Assembly: GCA_023259315.1 (NCBI GenBank)
Contig: JAHFQL010000070.1
Location: 1 to 6,480, forward strand
From: Candidatus Woesearchaeota archaeon
Lineage (GTDB): Archaea; Nanoarchaeota; Nanoarchaeia; Woesearchaeales; GW2011-AR4
Direction: 5' to 3'
DNA length: 6,480 bases
Position 1 is the first letter of the stretch. Each line of letters starts with the position of its first letter. The notes beneath the pieces were generated by a model. The model was not told the origin of the DNA. It worked only from the letters and a program-made list of their open reading frames with translations, and searched no databases. Shown here one piece after another: positions 107 through 4,368 of the stretch. Made by a program: the position numbers and the translations under genes.

Positions 107-1231
107 ATGACTCACGAAACAAAAGAAGACGCTTTGTTAGAGAAAGTTATAATTTTTCTTGTCTTCTTAGCGGGAGCTGTGCTGGTTTATAACCAGTTTC
201 AATTTGCAAAATTATCATCCAGTTTATTTTTGAATGCTTCGTCGTTTGTCCTGATTTTGGCGCTTATTGGGCTAATTGGATGGCTATTTTTGAAAAAGGA
301 ACCAATTCATGAAGAACATCATGTAGAACACGCAGCCCATAGTTCTGAACATATACCAAAAGCTGAAAAAAAATCTTTAAGCTTTCATGAAAAATTAAAT
401 TATAGTTTTGTCTCCTTAATTGCAATTTTAATCTTGTTCAATCAATTTCAAATTTCTCAAGTGAGTCCAGTAATCAGTGGCACATCGTCATCAGTCAGCA
501 ACTTTGTAAAGTCTGTCTCAAGTCCTTTAAAATTAGGCTCTGGCAAAGGTGGTGTTGTAATAGGCCCGCAACTTAATCAAGATGGAAGAACAACAAAACT
601 TGTTGAATGGCAGACAATAAGTGAAACACCTGCGCCAACAAAAAGCACAGGCAACCCAACAAATGACGCGATTGCAACTGTAGTGCCAACCGGAACTCCA
701 TCTTATGCACTAGAAGGTCCTGGAGCTGAAAAAATTAAAGGGGCCTCTTTTGATGATCCGATAGCAAGCCAAAAAATCTGGGCTTCTTTGCTTGGTTCTA
801 GCAGATTTGGCACAGCGAATGCAATTCAGTTGACTTCTGAGGAACAGCAAAGATGGAAAAAACTTACAAGCGTTTTCACATGCGATTTCTGCTGCGGCGG
901 GCCAAATAGTGTCACAACAATAAACCAATGCGGCTGCGCTCACAGCTTTGCATGGCAGGGCATGGCAAAATTTTTCATAAAATATTACCCGCAGTATACT
1001 GATGAGCAGATTTTAGGGGAAATGACTAAATGGAAAGCTATCTGGTATCCTAAAGGAATGATTCAGGATTATCTTGTTTATACAGGCCAGCAGCCTGCAA
1101 GCATTTTGACGCACGGCGGTTCAGTAGGCATAAAGCAGCAGTTTGCGCAGAAAGGTTCAGGCAATGCGCAAGAGACACATGCTACTGCAACATCAATTGA
1201 TAATCTGCCATCAATGCAAGGCGGATGTTAA
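107..1231 (+). CDS. Three-TM protein with extracytoplasmic Cys-rich CxxCC...CxCAH domain and NLPSMQGGC tail
   Basis: This is a 374-aa membrane protein. Hydrophobic segments lie at about residues 14-31, 46-62 and 99-117. The 63-98 loop is His-rich (HEEHH, HAAH, EH) and ends in lysines, so by the positive-inside rule it is cytoplasmic and the long C-terminal part is outside. A low-complexity Ser/Thr/Pro/Gly linker (about 120-200) leads to a domain at about 205-330 with C259, C262, C263, C275, C277 and H279, followed by the stretch YYPQYTDEQILGEM. That stretch recalls the region after the Cys pair of CcmH-like heme-lyase or PCYCGC-type proteins, but the likeness is from memory and weak. The pattern suggests metal binding or redox-active thiols. 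The last residues, NLPSMQGGC, are shared with the next gene. TM1 and TM3 are both followed by NQFQ, hinting at internal duplication. Start: ATG 27 bp after the TATA centre, no SD. I do not recognise a named family. Confidence 0.85.
   Translation: MTHETKEDALLEKVIIFLVFLAGAVLVYNQFQFAKLSSSLFLNASSFVLILALIGLIGWLFLKKEPIHEEHHVEHAAHSSEHIPKAEKKSLSFHEKLNYSFVSLIAILILFNQFQISQVSPVISGTSSSVSNFVKSVSSPLKLGSGKGGVVIGPQLNQDGRTTKLVEWQTISETPAPTKSTGNPTNDAIATVVPTGTPSYALEGPGAEKIKGASFDDPIASQKIWASLLGSSRFGTANAIQLTSEEQQRWKKLTSVFTCDFCCGGPNSVTTINQCGCAHSFAWQGMAKFFIKYYPQYTDEQILGEMTKWKAIWYPKGMIQDYLVYTGQQPASILTHGGSVGIKQQFAQKGSGNAQETHATATSIDNLPSMQGGC
1200..1231 (+). repeat. 32-bp direct repeat, copy 1 (encodes NLPSMQGGC-stop)
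   Basis: This stretch is identical, base for base, to 1468-1499. It covers the last two bases of an Asp codon, the codons for NLPSMQGGC, and the TAA stop. The match ends exactly at the stop in both copies; the flanking bases differ on both sides. Confidence 0.95.
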
Positions 1232-1249
1232 ATTTTAATAAATCAATAC

Positions 1250-1263
1250 AAAACTTTAAATAA
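1250..1263 (+). promoter_or_regulatory. BRE/TATA promoter of the thiol operon
   Basis: AAAACTTTAAATA at 1250-1262 fits a BRE (AAAAC) plus TATA box (TTTAAATA). The identical 13-mer occurs before the winged-helix gene at 4022-4034. The TATA centre near 1258 predicts a transcription start around 1282-1286, very close to the SD at 1279-1288. The operon may therefore have an extremely short leader, or may use the SD mainly on read-through transcripts from the preceding gene. Confidence 0.5.
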
Positions 1264-1278
1264 CATTAAAACAAACGC

Positions 1279-1288
1279 AGGAGGAGGT
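1279..1288 (+). promoter_or_regulatory. Strong Shine-Dalgarno site (AGGAGGAGGT)
   Basis: The near-perfect complement to the 16S rRNA tail sits 4 nt before the ATG at 1293. It is by far the strongest ribosome binding site in the window and suggests high expression of the 68-aa protein that follows. Confidence 0.8.
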
Positions 1289-1292
1289 AAAA

Positions 1293-1499
1293 ATGAACAG
1301 AAATGTAATTATTGTGATTGTGCTTGTTGTCTTGGTATTGCTGACAGCAGTTCAGGCAATCCAGCTTAGCTCATTAAAGTCAAGCATAAGCGCAGGCAAG
1401 GTTAGTGTTGGAAGTGCTCCCTCGACAGGCTCAAGCGGCTCAACTGGAAGCGGAGCAACAGACATAAATAATCTGCCATCAATGCAAGGCGGATGTTAA
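1293..1499 (+). CDS. Small single-TM protein with Gly/Ser linker and C-terminal NLPSMQGGC
   Basis: This 68-aa protein has three parts. A hydrophobic helix (about residues 5-21) is followed by QAIQLSSLKSSIS and a flexible Gly/Ser/Thr linker (about 37-56). The tail is INNLPSMQGGC, with its only cysteine as the last residue. With Arg3 on the N-side, an N-in/C-out topology is likely, putting the terminal thiol outside on a swinging arm. The tail is identical over nine residues to that of the preceding 374-aa protein. The segment after the TM also resembles that protein after TM1 and TM3 (NQFQ/QAIQ then Ser-rich), so this gene looks like a minimal version of its TM3-linker-tail. An exceptional SD supports the start. 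Downstream is a lipoprotein gene, 20 bp away. Function unknown; a tethered thiol carrier or a sorting/modification signal are both possible. Confidence 0.85.
   Translation: MNRNVIIVIVLVVLVLLTAVQAIQLSSLKSSISAGKVSVGSAPSTGSSGSTGSGATDINNLPSMQGGC
1468..1499 (+). repeat. 32-bp direct repeat, copy 2 (encodes NLPSMQGGC-stop)
   Basis: Perfect copy of 1200-1231, again ending at the TAA stop codon. The copies start 268 bp apart. Confidence 0.95.
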
Positions 1500-1519
1500 T
1501 TATTTATGGGGGTTAAAAA

Positions 1520-1726
1520 ATGAAAGCAAAACTAGCAATATTGGCAGTATTGGTTTTTAGCATTTTTTTGTTTGGCTGCACATCTAATACAAACGGCTAT
1601 GCTGGCTATAACCAGCAACAGCAACAAGGCCAGCCTCAGCAGCAGCAATATGTTGGAGGGGGCTGTGGAGTTGCTCCAGAAGGGCCGTATGGAATAATTG
1701 AAGTTCCACCTCAATCTGCAGCTTAA
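1520..1726 (+). CDS. Small Gln-rich lipoprotein with GGGC motif
   Basis: This 68-aa protein starts with a classic lipoprotein signal: Lys2/Lys4, a hydrophobic core, and a lipobox-like LFGC with Cys20 as the predicted lipidated residue. The mature part is only about 49 residues: TSNTNGYAGY, then a Gln tract (Q32-36, Q38, Q40-43), YVGGGCG with Cys49, and a Pro-rich end (EVPPQSAA). The single mature thiol in a Gly-rich context echoes the GGC tails of the two genes upstream. A GGGGGT Shine-Dalgarno-like site at 1508-1513 precedes the ATG at 1520. The stop is 1 nt from the next ATG. The lipobox has Phe at -2, somewhat unusual but tolerated. It likely sits on the outer face of the cell membrane. 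No known family recognised; the function is not evident. Confidence 0.8.
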   Translation: MKAKLAILAVLVFSIFLFGCTSNTNGYAGYNQQQQQGQPQQQQYVGGGCGVAPEGPYGIIEVPPQSAA

Positions 1727-1727
1727 A

Positions 1728-2198
1728 ATGGACTTAACCAAGAGGGAAAAGCGAAATCTTAGGCTGGAAAAGCTTAGGCAGGAAAGCCAGGAAGCTCAAA
1801 AAGAATATGAGCAAAGGCTAGAGCATCAAAAGCAGTTAGAATCAAAAGGCACAAAGCCAACCAAATCAAAATTTTACATAATCGCATCAGTTGTCGGAGT
1901 GATAATCTTGTCCATAATCGCTTATTCTGTTTATTCGATCAGCAAACCAGGTCCTTATGATAGTTTCACAAAATGCCTTACCGAAAAAGGTGCTGTCATG
2001 TATGGCGCACTGGGCTGGTGCAAGTTCACTCAAGCACAAAGAGCGATGTTTGGAAAGTCATTCAAATACGTAAATTATCACGAATTCCAGGATTTGCAAG
2101 GTATAAAGAAAACCCCCACTTGGGTCATAAATGGCCAGTGGTATGAGAATGTACAGTCATTTGATAAATTATCTGCACTGACTGGCTGCAAGATATAA
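1728..2198 (+). CDS. Membrane-anchored thioredoxin-fold protein lacking the CxxC
   Basis: The 156-aa protein has a charged, coiled-coil-like cytoplasmic N-terminus (about 4-40), one TM helix (about 49-70) and a C-terminal thioredoxin-like domain (about 76-156). It contains YDSFTKCLTEKGAVMYGA, the cis-Pro region TPTWVINGQWYE (Pro130) and a final LTGC. This matches the membrane-anchored or VKOR-fused thioredoxin domain of archaea and bacteria, which normally reads WCPHCQ at the active site. Here the equivalent is GWCKFTQ, so the second Cys is Thr (C98 and T101) and the protein is monothiol. The family's further Cys pair before the cis-Pro also seems absent. C83 and C154 remain. A TTG at 1698 would extend the frame 10 residues into the lipoprotein gene. 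I prefer the ATG at 1728, 1 nt after that gene's stop; no SD is visible, suggesting translational coupling. It may be a substrate-binding, metal-binding or mixed-disulfide partner rather than an oxidase. Confidence 0.85.
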   Translation: MDLTKREKRNLRLEKLRQESQEAQKEYEQRLEHQKQLESKGTKPTKSKFYIIASVVGVIILSIIAYSVYSISKPGPYDSFTKCLTEKGAVMYGALGWCKFTQAQRAMFGKSFKYVNYHEFQDLQGIKKTPTWVINGQWYENVQSFDKLSALTGCKI

Positions 2199-2207
2199 AA
2201 AGGAAAA

Positions 2208-3410
2208 ATGGAAGAAAAAAAAGAAGGGCATACTCACGCAGAGCACGAGCATCATAAAGCAAATCCTAAAAATACATTTAAATTAAACCTTGAAAATGCG
2301 TTTGCTGGGTTGGCAATAATCCTGTTGGTTATCCTGCTGGTTAACTTATACCTTACTTTTACCTTGAATCAGGATTTGAAGAAGAATGCGGAATTGCTCA
2401 AGGAAAAAACCAAACCTGCAAATATACAACTTTTAGTGATAAAGAATTCCAAGTGCAGTGACTGTTTTGACATAGATTCGGTTATCAATTATATAAAAAC
2501 TCAGAAAGTCAATGTTACAAGCGAAAAGACTTTGGAATTTGATTCTGCTGAAGGGAAGCAATTGATTAGCGACTATAAGATTGAAAAAATCCCTACAGTC
2601 ATAGTAACAGGTGAAACAGGCAAATTTGCCATACAAGGATTGGAAAAGAAAGGCAATGCCCTTGTTCTCAAAACTGTAAACCCACCTTACACAAACGCCA
2701 CAAATGGCAAAATTTTTGGAAGAGTCACTTTGTACAGGATTTATGATCCGACATGTGGAAAATGCAATGACATGAGCTTTTTGATAAATCAGTTTAAACT
2801 ATTAGATATTGATATCACAGAGCAAAAAAATATAACTTCTAGCAGCAATGAAGGAAAGAATTTGATTAGTAAATATAAACTAAGTTTCGTGCCTGTAATT
2901 ATACTGTCAAAGGATGCAGGCGCTTATGATATAATAAAAAAGGCATGGTCCCAGATAGGAAAAGTGGAAAGCGATGGTTCTTATGTGTTAAGCCTAGTTT
3001 ATCCTCCCTTCATTAATTTGACAACAAATGAGTTAAAAGGTGTAGTAAATGTAATATATCTTACAGATAAGGAATGCACGGAATGTTATAATGTAAATTT
3101 ACATAGATCCATACTTATAAGCCCCTCAAGCTTTGGAATGAAACTCGACAAGGAAGAAACTATAGACATAAGTGATACCAAAGGCACGGAACTTTTGCTG
3201 AAATATAACATAACCCAAGTCCCGACAATAATACTTTCCGGAGGGGTCAATGATTATCCATCATCTATAGGACTAAAGCAGTTCTTTTCCATGGAAAAGG
3301 ATGGTTCCTATATCTTTAGGAAGCTATCAGTCGTAGGCACTTACAAAGATCTTGCAACAAACACAGTTGTTAAGCCGCAAACGAATCAGGGGCAACAAGC
3401 ACAAACATGA
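2208..3410 (+). CDS. Membrane protein with three tandem CxxC thioredoxin-like domains
   Basis: The 400-aa protein has a His-rich cytoplasmic N-terminus (HTHAEHEHH, residues 8-16), one TM helix (about 32-52) and three similar thioredoxin-like units. Each has a beta strand leading into CxxC (C83/C86 in KCSDC, C183/C186 in TCGKC, C290/C293 in ECTEC) and a later cis-Pro strand (IPTVIV Pro129, VPVIIL Pro229, VPTIIL Pro339). The units are about 100-110 residues apart and joined by PPY/PPF linkers (NPPYTNATNGKIFGRV and YPPFINLTTNELKGVV). This points to internal triplication. Dithiol exchange outside the membrane is likely, perhaps as a relay or isomerase. The CxxC dipeptides (SD, GK, TE) differ from the classical GP or PH, so redox potentials may differ. 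A weak SD (AAGGA, 2200-2203) precedes the ATG. The downstream gene overlaps by 4 bp. Specific partner unknown; no electron donor such as DsbD or VKOR is in the window. Confidence 0.88.
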   Translation: MEEKKEGHTHAEHEHHKANPKNTFKLNLENAFAGLAIILLVILLVNLYLTFTLNQDLKKNAELLKEKTKPANIQLLVIKNSKCSDCFDIDSVINYIKTQKVNVTSEKTLEFDSAEGKQLISDYKIEKIPTVIVTGETGKFAIQGLEKKGNALVLKTVNPPYTNATNGKIFGRVTLYRIYDPTCGKCNDMSFLINQFKLLDIDITEQKNITSSSNEGKNLISKYKLSFVPVIILSKDAGAYDIIKKAWSQIGKVESDGSYVLSLVYPPFINLTTNELKGVVNVIYLTDKECTECYNVNLHRSILISPSSFGMKLDKEETIDISDTKGTELLLKYNITQVPTIILSGGVNDYPSSIGLKQFFSMEKDGSYIFRKLSVVGTYKDLATNTVVKPQTNQGQQAQT

Positions 3411-4003
3411 AAAAAAAAGATGTTATGTATTTGCTTTTGACTTTAATTTTGTTGATTTTATTTTTTTGGCAGATTCTTTCAAAAAGTGATATCAATTCTC
3501 AGTTAAGCAAACTGTCAATTCAAGCAAGCCAGCTTCAGAAATATAATAACCAGTTATCCTTATTGTCTGGCATCGGCCCATTGAAATCTACACATATTCA
3601 TGCAGACGTGAAAATCTACATAAGTGGCCAGCCAATTGATTTTTCCCAAAAGAAATACCAGCTGACTACAAGTTACATCCATTTTGAGGATGGGCTTGGT
3701 GATGTGGTGCATATTCATGCGACTGGCATGAGGATAAGTCATTTATTAAAATCTGTCGGAATGAATTTCAAAAACAATTGCTTGGTTGTTGAAGGAACTG
3801 ATTATTGCGATGAAAAAGACAAAAAACTGAAGTTTTATGTTAATGGTAAGCTAAATACTGAATTTGAAAATTATTTGATTAAAGATTTGGACAAAATGCT
3901 GATTTCTTATGGCAGCGAAAACGATGGAGAAATTCAAAAACAGTTGAGTTCTGTGACTGATCTAGCGCAAAAGTATAGTGAGAATAAGCAGGAAATGGAA
4001 TAG
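3407..4003 (+). CDS. Membrane-anchored HIH-motif protein, putative metal-binding
   Basis: The 198-aa protein has Lys2-4, a strong TM helix (about 7-24), a short Gln/Ser/Leu-rich coiled-coil-like stretch (about 29-53), then a globular domain. That domain reads STHIHADVKIYISGQPIDFS, then SYIHFEDGLGDVVHIHATG. Histidines 63, 65, 92, 102 and 104 fall in regular HxH patterns, with C125 and C134 close after. I recall similar HIHADFKVYINGK...HVHATG proteins as uncharacterised archaeal proteins, often near thioredoxin or VKOR genes; that memory is unverified. The His clusters suggest bound copper, zinc or similar outside the membrane, and the two cysteines could form a disulfide. The start ATG overlaps the preceding stop (ATGA), and a possible SD (AGGGG, 3388-3392) is too far, so translation is probably coupled. 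It is the last gene of the run. The function is inferred only. Confidence 0.82.
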   Translation: MKKKDVMYLLLTLILLILFFWQILSKSDINSQLSKLSIQASQLQKYNNQLSLLSGIGPLKSTHIHADVKIYISGQPIDFSQKKYQLTTSYIHFEDGLGDVVHIHATGMRISHLLKSVGMNFKNNCLVVEGTDYCDEKDKKLKFYVNGKLNTEFENYLIKDLDKMLISYGSENDGEIQKQLSSVTDLAQKYSENKQEME

Positions 4004-4092: not shown

Positions 4093-4368
4093 ATGGTCAG
4101 CCAAAACAAGGAAATATTCAATGTTTTTTTTCGGGAGAAGCCAGCCATGATGCTGGTTGAGTTGAAAAATGCTAAAAACGAAATCTATGCTTCATCAATC
4201 GCAAAAACAGTTGACTGCACTTATTCTCATGTTGTGAAAATTCTGCAGGAAATGCAGAAGGCAGGGCTTATAAATTTTGAAAAGCAAGGCAGGCTGAAAC
4301 TTCTCACGCTCACAAAACTCGGCCAAGAAGTTGCGGAAAAAATTGATGCTATACGGGTTATATTGTAA
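4093..4368 (+). CDS. Small winged-helix DNA-binding protein
   Basis: The 91-aa protein is essentially one winged helix-turn-helix domain, the size of minimal archaeal MarR/ArsR-like regulators. A first helix (about 4-25) is followed by the helix IYASSIAKTV (31-40) and a recognition helix at about 43-58 (TYSHVVKILQEMQKAG). The beta wing LINFEKQGRLKLLTLTKLG (about 59-77) and a short C-terminal helix complete it. No ligand domain is present. C42 is the only cysteine and lies at the start of the recognition helix, so thiol sensing is conceivable but unproven. The gene has its own promoter behind a perfect palindrome, and that promoter core also occurs before the thiol operon, so it may regulate itself. 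It ends 3 bp from the stop of the convergent RecJ-like gene. Regulator assignment is firm at fold level; target genes are inferred. Confidence 0.85.
   Translation: MVSQNKEIFNVFFREKPAMMLVELKNAKNEIYASSIAKTVDCTYSHVVKILQEMQKAGLINFEKQGRLKLLTLTKLGQEVAEKIDAIRVIL
4337..4342 (-). terminator. Possible oligo-T terminator for the RecJ-like gene, inside the opposing gene
   Basis: On the minus strand a TTTTTT run lies 30 nt past the RecJ-like stop, within the winged-helix coding sequence. The two convergent genes leave only 3 bp between stops, so any terminator must lie in the other gene. Low confidence. Confidence 0.25.

Follow-up and report, generated by a model that had tools for sequence, protein, structure and literature searches.

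A run of six genes in a Candidatus Woesearchaeota archaeon may encode an extracytoplasmic thiol relay serving copper, a reading to which we give close to an even chance. Both the copper role and the client are suggested by gene context. The system would work like Scs or TlpA/Sco but fits no named family tested. In the ORF list of the window, which is the whole stretch of DNA analysed (6,480 nucleotides), all six same-strand frames, g1-g6, are present at 107..4003 of the + strand. A hydropathy scan found at least one transmembrane-like or signal segment in each of them, and three in g1. This agrees with the earlier note, which had described six consecutive same-strand genes for membrane-anchored or lipidated proteins. 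The intergenic gaps from g1 to g6 are 61, 20, 1, 9 and -4 bases. With only 20, 1, 9 and -4 bases between them, g2-g6 are tightly packed; the earlier note had placed five of the genes in one probable operon. The cysteines and histidines of g1-g6 are predicted to face outward, and the six proteins may pass electrons or metal to each other. For g1, g2, g3, g4 and g6, no Pfam or NCBIfam family scored above its cut-off. The features are as follows.

107..1231, + strand: g1, membrane-anchored, with a CxxCC...CGCAH ectodomain and a C-terminal LPSMQGGC arm; cysteines C259/262/263/275/277/374 (ORF, 157 matching proteins, alignments)
821..1045, + strand: region of g1 predicted to form three CcmH-like helices, residues 239-313 of the protein and 100-174 of the model (model)
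1205..1228, + strand: C-terminal arm of g1, LPSMQGGC, MVGGC in most relatives (endings of 120 listed g1 proteins)
1293..1499, + strand: g2, 68 aa, a transmembrane anchor, a linker and the C-terminal arm NNLPSMQGGC; cysteine C68 (ORF, adjoins g1)
1473..1496, + strand: C-terminal arm of g2, LPSMQGGC (sequence, g2 alignment)
1520..1726, + strand: g3, a small putative lipoprotein with a YVGGGCG arm; cysteines C20/49 (ORF, relatives in 12 of 14 Woesearchaeota loci, similar small proteins)
1728..2198, + strand: g4, a membrane-anchored monothiol thioredoxin-like protein (WCKFT) with C-terminal GCKI; cysteines C83/98/154; start taken as the ATG at 1728, the ORF list having an upstream TTG at 1698 (3kp8 match, motif in relatives)
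2208..3410, + strand: g5, membrane-anchored, with three CxxC thioredoxin-like domains; cysteines C83/86, 183/186, 290/293 (PF00085, CxxC counts in relatives)
3407..4003, + strand: g6, membrane-anchored, with a putative beta-grasp-like domain and conserved histidines (HxH, HF, HxH); cysteines C125/134 (167 matches, alignment, model and fold comparison)
4093..4368, + strand: g7, a winged-helix protein and possible regulator, a seventh gene that keeps its place after g1-g6 in 10 of 14 Woesearchaeota loci (weak Pfam/NCBIfam winged-helix matches)

g1 and g6 are more than chance ORFs, because 157 and 167 proteins, respectively, match them at E<=1e-3, the window's own counted in. Among the matches listed, the CxxCC...CGCxH pattern is present in 120 of 120 g1 proteins and the ending MxGGC in 117 of 120 (MVGGC in 112, MQGGC in 5); the other three end otherwise and are perhaps truncated. 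The Cys/His pattern was also found in 30/30 g1 profile hits, and five cysteines and one histidine do not vary in any of three alignments, which have 17, 66 and 25 sequences. These alignments and profile hits are the non-circular measure of conservation; in the 72 g1 domains of a tree, which were chosen by this pattern, invariance is by construction and is not evidence. Twelve CPR sequences lie in several places among the archaeal sequences of that tree, which is no more than a hint of gene transfer. The earlier note had described cytoplasmic His-rich segments in two of the proteins; the alignment showed that many relatives lack the His-rich N-terminal part of g1.

The domain of CcmH, a thiol reductase, consists of three helices and carries its CxxC in the loop that follows the first (PMC3884852). 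The modelled g1 domain has a distant resemblance to this fold and may likewise have three helices with a CxxC after the first, and the proposed supply by CcdA/DsbD and thioredoxin would be as in the CcmG/CcmH branch. The earlier claim that the genes match no cytochrome c maturation system was therefore too strong. On the other hand, g1 has CxxCC (FTCDYCC or similar) and CGCxH, and the LRCxxC motif of CcmH was not found. PF03918 (CcmH) gave no g1 match at E<=1, and a Pfam scan of 25 divergent members, with 14 families listed, did not bring it up either. Foldseek found no hit for the g1 model at E<=0.001, and a g1 profile found nothing relevant among PDB sequences. Membership of g1 in PCYCGC (PF13798) was rejected, as this family is not among the Pfam matches of g1 or of the 25 divergent members. 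One locus, L104, does have a genuine PCYCGC protein nearby.

The C-terminal arm is common to g1 and g2. The earlier note had described a C-terminal Cys arm on g2; it is there, but g1 carries LPSMQGGC too and g3 the related YVGGGCG. g2 adjoins g1 in 19/19 loci and in 30/30 fetched loci. In 279 genomes of one phylum, a C-terminal MVGGC was found in 76, all of which have g1, and in 0 of the 201 genomes without g1. Among the matches listed, 148 of 150 MVGGC sites are no more than 3 kb away from g1; the remaining two belong to a g1 genome but lie on another of its contigs, close to where that contig begins. Thus, C-terminal MVGGC is a near-perfect marker of the g1 system, and these 148 sites speak against a general sorting tag, an idea that was given up.

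The thioredoxin-like proteins g4 and g5 differ in their active sites. g4 has CKFT in the window, with no CxxC, and its relatives show WC[KQ][YF]T (CxxT) in 24 of 29, WCPxC in four and no pattern in one. g5 matched PF00085 in one stretch, the first Trx domain (25.8 bits, cut-off 23.5), and fell short of TIGR02187, protein disulfide oxidoreductase (35.5 bits, cut-off 185). Three CxxC motifs are present in 39 of its 47 relatives and two in the other eight. The fold of g6 may be a beta-grasp similar to that of DUF4430/transcobalamin-C. A tblastn search of g6 against phages found none.

Gene order is conserved across Woesearchaeota loci. g1 and g2, mostly with g5, occur together in Woesearchaeota and CPR bacteria, and g1 and g2 also in an Aenigmatarchaeon. 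Neighbourhoods were compared in 33 wide loci with g5, 16 without g5 (including the contig-end cases L075, L093, L117 and L118) and 40 control stretches. g4 is present in 15/33 and g6 in 13/33 of the wide loci with g5. The core is g1, g2 and g5, and g3, g4 and g6 are accessory, so the proposed six-gene system stands in its core and not as a fixed set. The co-occurrence check set by the earlier note did not refute the system idea, since the core genes are not scattered. CcdA/DsbD-like carriers lie near many of them: such carriers, counted from Pfam-confirmed examples only, are in 18/33 wide g5 loci versus 0/40 controls, and among the window's 19 nearest loci (L001-L019) CcdA occurs in 11. DsbA-like proteins (labelled by eye) are not enriched near g5 (4/33 versus 3/40). 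M56 is in 3/33 with the Pfam-confirmed example alone and in 14/33 with both examples. The labels MerC-like, HTHD, CPLC and SfLAP-like, and one of the two M56 examples, were also given by eye. A DsbD/CcdA-type carrier beside a Trx protein is the arrangement of the ScsB/ScsC relay. In ScsABCD of Proteobacteria, a DsbD-type membrane carrier keeps an extracytoplasmic Trx-fold protein reduced; the system is copper-linked and has a Cu(I)-binding Trx protein (PMC8900818). The present system shares the carrier, the extracytoplasmic thioredoxin-fold protein and a probable copper link, but its Trx domains are several in tandem, it includes the CcmH-like g1 and the arms ending in MVGGC, it belongs to DPANN/CPR, and its copper binding is presumed.

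The copper link comes from related loci. CopA-like proteins are in 11/33 wide g5 loci and 8/16 without g5 versus 1/40 controls, DUF411 in 5/33 and 9/16 versus 0/40, and cupredoxins in 6/33 and 7/16 versus 0/40. A CuA motif is near 10/49 wide loci versus 0/40 controls. None of Cu-ATPase, DUF411 and CuA-type cupredoxin was found in L001-L019, the loci nearest to the window (CuA motif 0/19). The metal delivery proposed earlier is thus narrowed to copper by related loci but lacks copper context in the nearest ones. Genomes with g1 more often have DUF411 (43/78 versus 3/201 without g1), COX2-domain proteins (34/78 versus 24/201) and Cu-ATPases (70/78 versus 97/201, counts that may be up to four off, 167 by hand and 171 by program). 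Of the COX2-domain sites, 15/37 lie within 10 kb of g1, and all nine that were read have C-x3-C-x3-H-x2-M. Two lipoproteins are encoded upstream of g1 in Woesearchaeota: an SCO1-like one of the AhpC/TSA type (SCO1-SenC 22.2 bits, cut-off 22.8) and one that is YtkA-like and rich in Cys, Met and His. TlpA reduces ScoI and COX II (PMC6696091). TlpA/Sco/PcuC resembles our system in the membrane-anchored Trx-like reductant, the SCO-like neighbour (below cut-off) and the CuA-type cupredoxins near related loci, but the putative client cupredoxins here are small separate proteins. We know of no counterpart of the CcmH-like g1 and the MVGGC arms in TlpA/Sco/PcuC. DUF411/CopG, CutF and PCYCGC are likewise Cys-rich extracytoplasmic proteins of copper loci, and DUF411 adjoins many g1 loci, but g1-g3 had no sequence match to DUF411 or PCYCGC in Pfam scans. 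CutF, a small Cys protein of copper operons (PMC8456105), is likened by description only. CuA-bearing nosZ-like proteins have been described in DPANN, and the available part of that paper names no g1-type operon (PMC10936187). A literature search on MVGGC, on PCYCGC, on copper in DPANN, Woesearchaeota and Patescibacteria and on disulfides in Woesearchaeota, with subscription papers and preprints mostly outside it, gave nothing on this system among the entries listed.

The proposed relay might work as follows. A CcdA/DsbD-like membrane carrier, encoded next to the system in related genomes and outside the window, would give electrons to g5. g5 would keep the cysteines of the CcmH-like g1 domain reduced, and also those of the tethered MVGGC arms (g1 tail, g2 and the variant in g3), if arms and domain meet. 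Met and Cys of the flexible arms, the g1 Cys/His cluster and the His of g6 could hold Cu(I) outside the membrane and pass it onward. In part of the genomes, the recipient would plausibly be secreted cupredoxins with a CuA site. In the boldest version, which seems to us unlikely, this is a DPANN and CPR copper-loading machine: membrane-tethered MVGGC arms, seen solely beside g1 in the 279 genomes, would swing Cu(I) from the Cys/His cluster of the CcmH-like g1 to CuA-type cupredoxins outside the cell, and CcdA with the triple thioredoxin would supply the power.

The same genes could serve copper defence rather than delivery. Arms and His/Cys domains would then be extracellular traps for surplus Cu(I), and the thioredoxins would do no more than keep these traps reduced, as in Scs/CueP-like tolerance. 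The Cu-ATPase, DUF411, DUF302 and multicopper oxidase neighbours at related loci are consistent with this, as is a BlaI-type repressor in 14/33 wide g5 loci versus 0/40 controls; CopY is a member of the BlaI family. However, a CcdA carrier and three Trx domains exceed the needs of a trap, and the CuA-type cupredoxins suggest a client. We regard defence as a possible, if rather unlikely, function.

A copper relay also has to be set against systems with no role for copper. One is a general role in the oxidative folding of surface proteins or the isomerisation of their disulfides, in which no metal has a special part and g4 is the partner of a VKOR elsewhere in the genome. The resemblance of g4 to the Trx domain of a VKOR homologue (3kp8, E 1.1e-7) and the absence of copper genes around L001-L019 favour it. 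VKOR was not found within the operon; it is present in 12/19 genomes with the operon (in G006, VKOR and operon are on separate contigs, 8 and 3 respectively), but the other seven gave no VKOR match. Moreover, the private MVGGC arm stands solely beside g1 among the matches listed and copper genes cluster at related loci, and we consider folding improbable. Still less probable is another cofactor, either thioreduction for c-type cytochromes or a soft metal such as mercury. The CcmH-like fold of g1, a CxxCH protein in one locus (L109) and MerC-like membrane proteins (by eye) in 9/33 wide g5 loci speak for it; the MerC-like protein of L015 reached 25.6 bits against a PF03203 cut-off of 27.6. Against it, copper families dominate the neighbourhoods read, where no heme lyase or Ccm gene was recognised by eye.

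The proposed thiol relay for copper points to a function for proteins that carry only the annotation hypothetical in two large branches of uncultured life, and the system can be recognised by a simple code, a gene that ends in MVGGC. If the relay is real, many Woesearchaeota, which are tiny uncultured archaea, and some of the ultra-small CPR bacteria would handle copper at their surface by a dedicated thiol relay, a biochemical tool new to these two large and little-known groups. This would bear on how such reduced cells cope with oxygen and nitrogen oxides. If copper loading is its task, the relay would be a pathway of metallation that uses a carrier code of its own, in lineages that have been proposed to lack electron transport chains ancestrally (title of PMC7507113). 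It could also be a compact model for the coupling of thiol reduction to copper transfer outside the membrane.

The six open reading frames of one strand from which the earlier note had built a candidate extracytoplasmic thiol/metal relay are present where it placed them in the ORF listing of the window, and its transmembrane-like segments and cysteine positions for g1–g6 were borne out by a hydropathy scan and the sequence. A family scan identified the opposite-strand genes past g7. Homologue tables list g1 and g6 of the window on a contig of 6480 bases, so the window probably spans an entire metagenome contig.

107–1231, same strand: g1, membrane-anchored, CxxCC...CGCxH ectodomain
1293–1499, same strand: g2, small membrane-tethered arm
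1520–1726, same strand: g3, putative lipoprotein
1728–2198, same strand: g4, monothiol thioredoxin-like protein
2208–3410, same strand: g5, three CxxC thioredoxin-like domains
3407–4003, same strand: g6, membrane-anchored, conserved His
4093–4368, same strand: g7, winged-helix gene, after g6
past g7, opposite strand: DHH-family protein and undecaprenyl diphosphate synthase

Both g1 and g2 end in LPSMQGGC and g3 carries YVGGGCG; thus, a Gly-Gly-Cys arm is found on three membrane-attached proteins.

Protein homologue searches returned 157 matches for g1 (E<=1e-3), many at 70–77% identity and several named Woesearchaeota, and 167 for g6. A g1 profile of divergent members found 800 proteins among 7994 scored candidates, and some of the best 120 of these 800 have names including Micrarchaeia and Nanoarchaeia. 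The alignment revealed that the conserved part of g1 is the ectodomain. Across alignments of 17, 66 and 25 sequences, CPR bacteria included, its five Cys and single His never vary. Among the best 120 of the 157 matches, window included, CxxCC...CGCxH is present in 120/120 and an MxGGC end in 117/120; CxxCC...CGCxH is also in 30/30 profile matches of loci L020–L049.

Scanning genome contigs gave the 19 g1 loci nearest the window (14 Woesearchaeota, one Aenigmatarchaeota, three Uhrbacteria and one Magasanikbacteria). A g2-type protein lies near g1 in all 19 and g5 is present in 17 (absent from L014 and L018), while 12 of the 14 Woesearchaeota loci have g3 and 10 have g7. In these 10 loci the winged-helix gene (4093–4368 in the window) follows g6; other lineages instead carry a BlaI-type repressor. 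In L010, g4 appears as two split ORFs (1682–2226), through a true break or an assembly error. Fusions also occur: g1 of the CPR loci L016 (9389–10699) and L019 (6075–7355) carries an extra N-terminal membrane domain with a CPxCG motif, and g6 of L018 is joined to a MerC-like membrane domain. In the phylum of genome G006, 78/279 genomes have a g1 match, and g2 is found in all 30 best-scoring loci (three in genomes of the earlier set). Among 47 g1/g2 pairs with both arms, all are on one strand and 45 lie <=400 bases apart. In a CPR sample, 12/286 genomes have a g1 match; around the one marginal match, L122, module genes were looked for and none was seen. CPR g1 proteins (L115–L120, L016–L019) were scattered in several places among archaeal g1 in a quick tree, which suggests transfer of g1 between the domains.

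A DNA pattern search found C-terminal MVGGC in 76/279 genomes of this phylum, all among the 78 g1 genomes (G030 and G098 lack it), and in 0/201 g1-negative genomes; the reversed pattern, used as control, gave three sites. Among the matches listed, 148/150 MVGGC sites lie <=3 kb from a g1 match, a part of them being g1's own tail and hence near by construction, and the remainder g2 or other short transmembrane proteins with the same end. In the window, g1 and g2 alike end in the rarer MQGGC, which is present in 5/120 g1 proteins (best 120 of 157, window's included). This V-to-Q change is shared as if one had been copied from the other, and the final 32 bases of g1 (1200–1231) and g2 (1468–1499) are identical. 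From these two features, the arms of g1 and g2 seem to change in concert. A second type of g1 locus (L101, L102, L104, L106, L107, L109) lacks g5 and combines copper genes with two or three proteins of the MVGGC kind; in some, a short conserved segment, GWT...NYEMHG..PAR, precedes MVGGC.

Just upstream of g1, outside the window, several Woesearchaeota loci encode membrane proteins of CcdA/DsbD type, a lipoprotein of AhpC/TSA type whose SCO1 similarity is slightly under the cut-off, and a YtkA-like lipoprotein rich in Cys, Met and His. Elsewhere, in CPR bacteria and the other archaea, the genes ahead of the module often encode a repressor of the BlaI family and a membrane peptidase resembling M56/M48. 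We set 49 wide g1 loci (L122 dropped from 50) against 40 control stretches of genomes that carry g1, and redid the counts with Pfam-confirmed examples only.

Neighbour families in 33 wide loci with g5 and in 40 controls
CcdA: 18/33; 0/40
BlaI: 14/33; 0/40
CopA-like: 11/33; 1/40
cupredoxin: 6/33; 0/40
DUF411: 5/33; 0/40
M56 (Pfam-confirmed example only): 3/33; 0/40

The 16 wide loci without g5 have CopA-like proteins in 8, DUF411 in 9 and cupredoxin in 7 (4, 7 and 4 of 11 when five example suppliers are removed). Representative neighbours scored over cut-off for copper-translocating ATPase (TIGR01511), DUF411, DUF302, cupredoxin and PCYCGC; a multicopper oxidase passed Pfam cut-offs, with the CueO model under its own. 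The copper-rich locus L109, from a DPANN genome, also encodes a small secreted protein with a cytochrome c-like CVSCH motif (6696–7190).

Genome-level counts, given without a p-value because the genomes are mutually related, are as follows: DUF411 in 43/78 g1 genomes versus 3/201 g1-negative ones, Cu-ATPase over cut-off in about 70/78 versus 97/201, and COX2-domain proteins in 34/78 versus 24/201. Among the matches listed, 31/66 Cu-ATPase sites in g1 genomes lie <=15 kb from a g1-family match; these include G006 and G012, where second g1 copies adjoin the ATPase and window-type operons are on other contigs. COX2-domain sites in g1 genomes lie <=10 kb from g1 in 15/37 cases; C-x3-C-x3-H-x2-M is present in each of the nine proteins examined among these 15 and, judged by eye, eight of the nine begin like lipoproteins. 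This motif occurs in 10/49 wide loci versus 0/40 controls, and in 0/19 of the loci nearest the window. Small DPANN cupredoxins with this CuA-type site are encoded in nine wide loci, L077, L081, L083 and L084 among them, and most begin like lipoproteins.

The 19 loci nearest the window have CcdA in 11 and BlaI in 6, and CopA, DUF411 and cupredoxin in none. Within the window's own clade, the available contigs encode redox proteins and a lipoprotein rich in Met and His near g1, and no copper families. The lack of copper families around the nearest loci is evidence against the copper reading. Known parallels are ScsC, which is kept reduced by ScsB and binds Cu(I) (PMC8900818), and TlpA, which reduces ScoI and COX II (PMC6696091). 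The proposed relay would resemble both. We infer that the MVGGC-type arms, the g1 Cys/His cluster and the g6 histidines would have roles in it. Such a system was not found described in the openly licensed literature, the scope of our search. Delivery of copper and defence against it fit the same data, and we lean towards delivery. In summary, these observations are consistent with a copper-linked thiol relay at the cell surface, a reading that we rate slightly below even chances, since its evidence is gene context and not chemistry.
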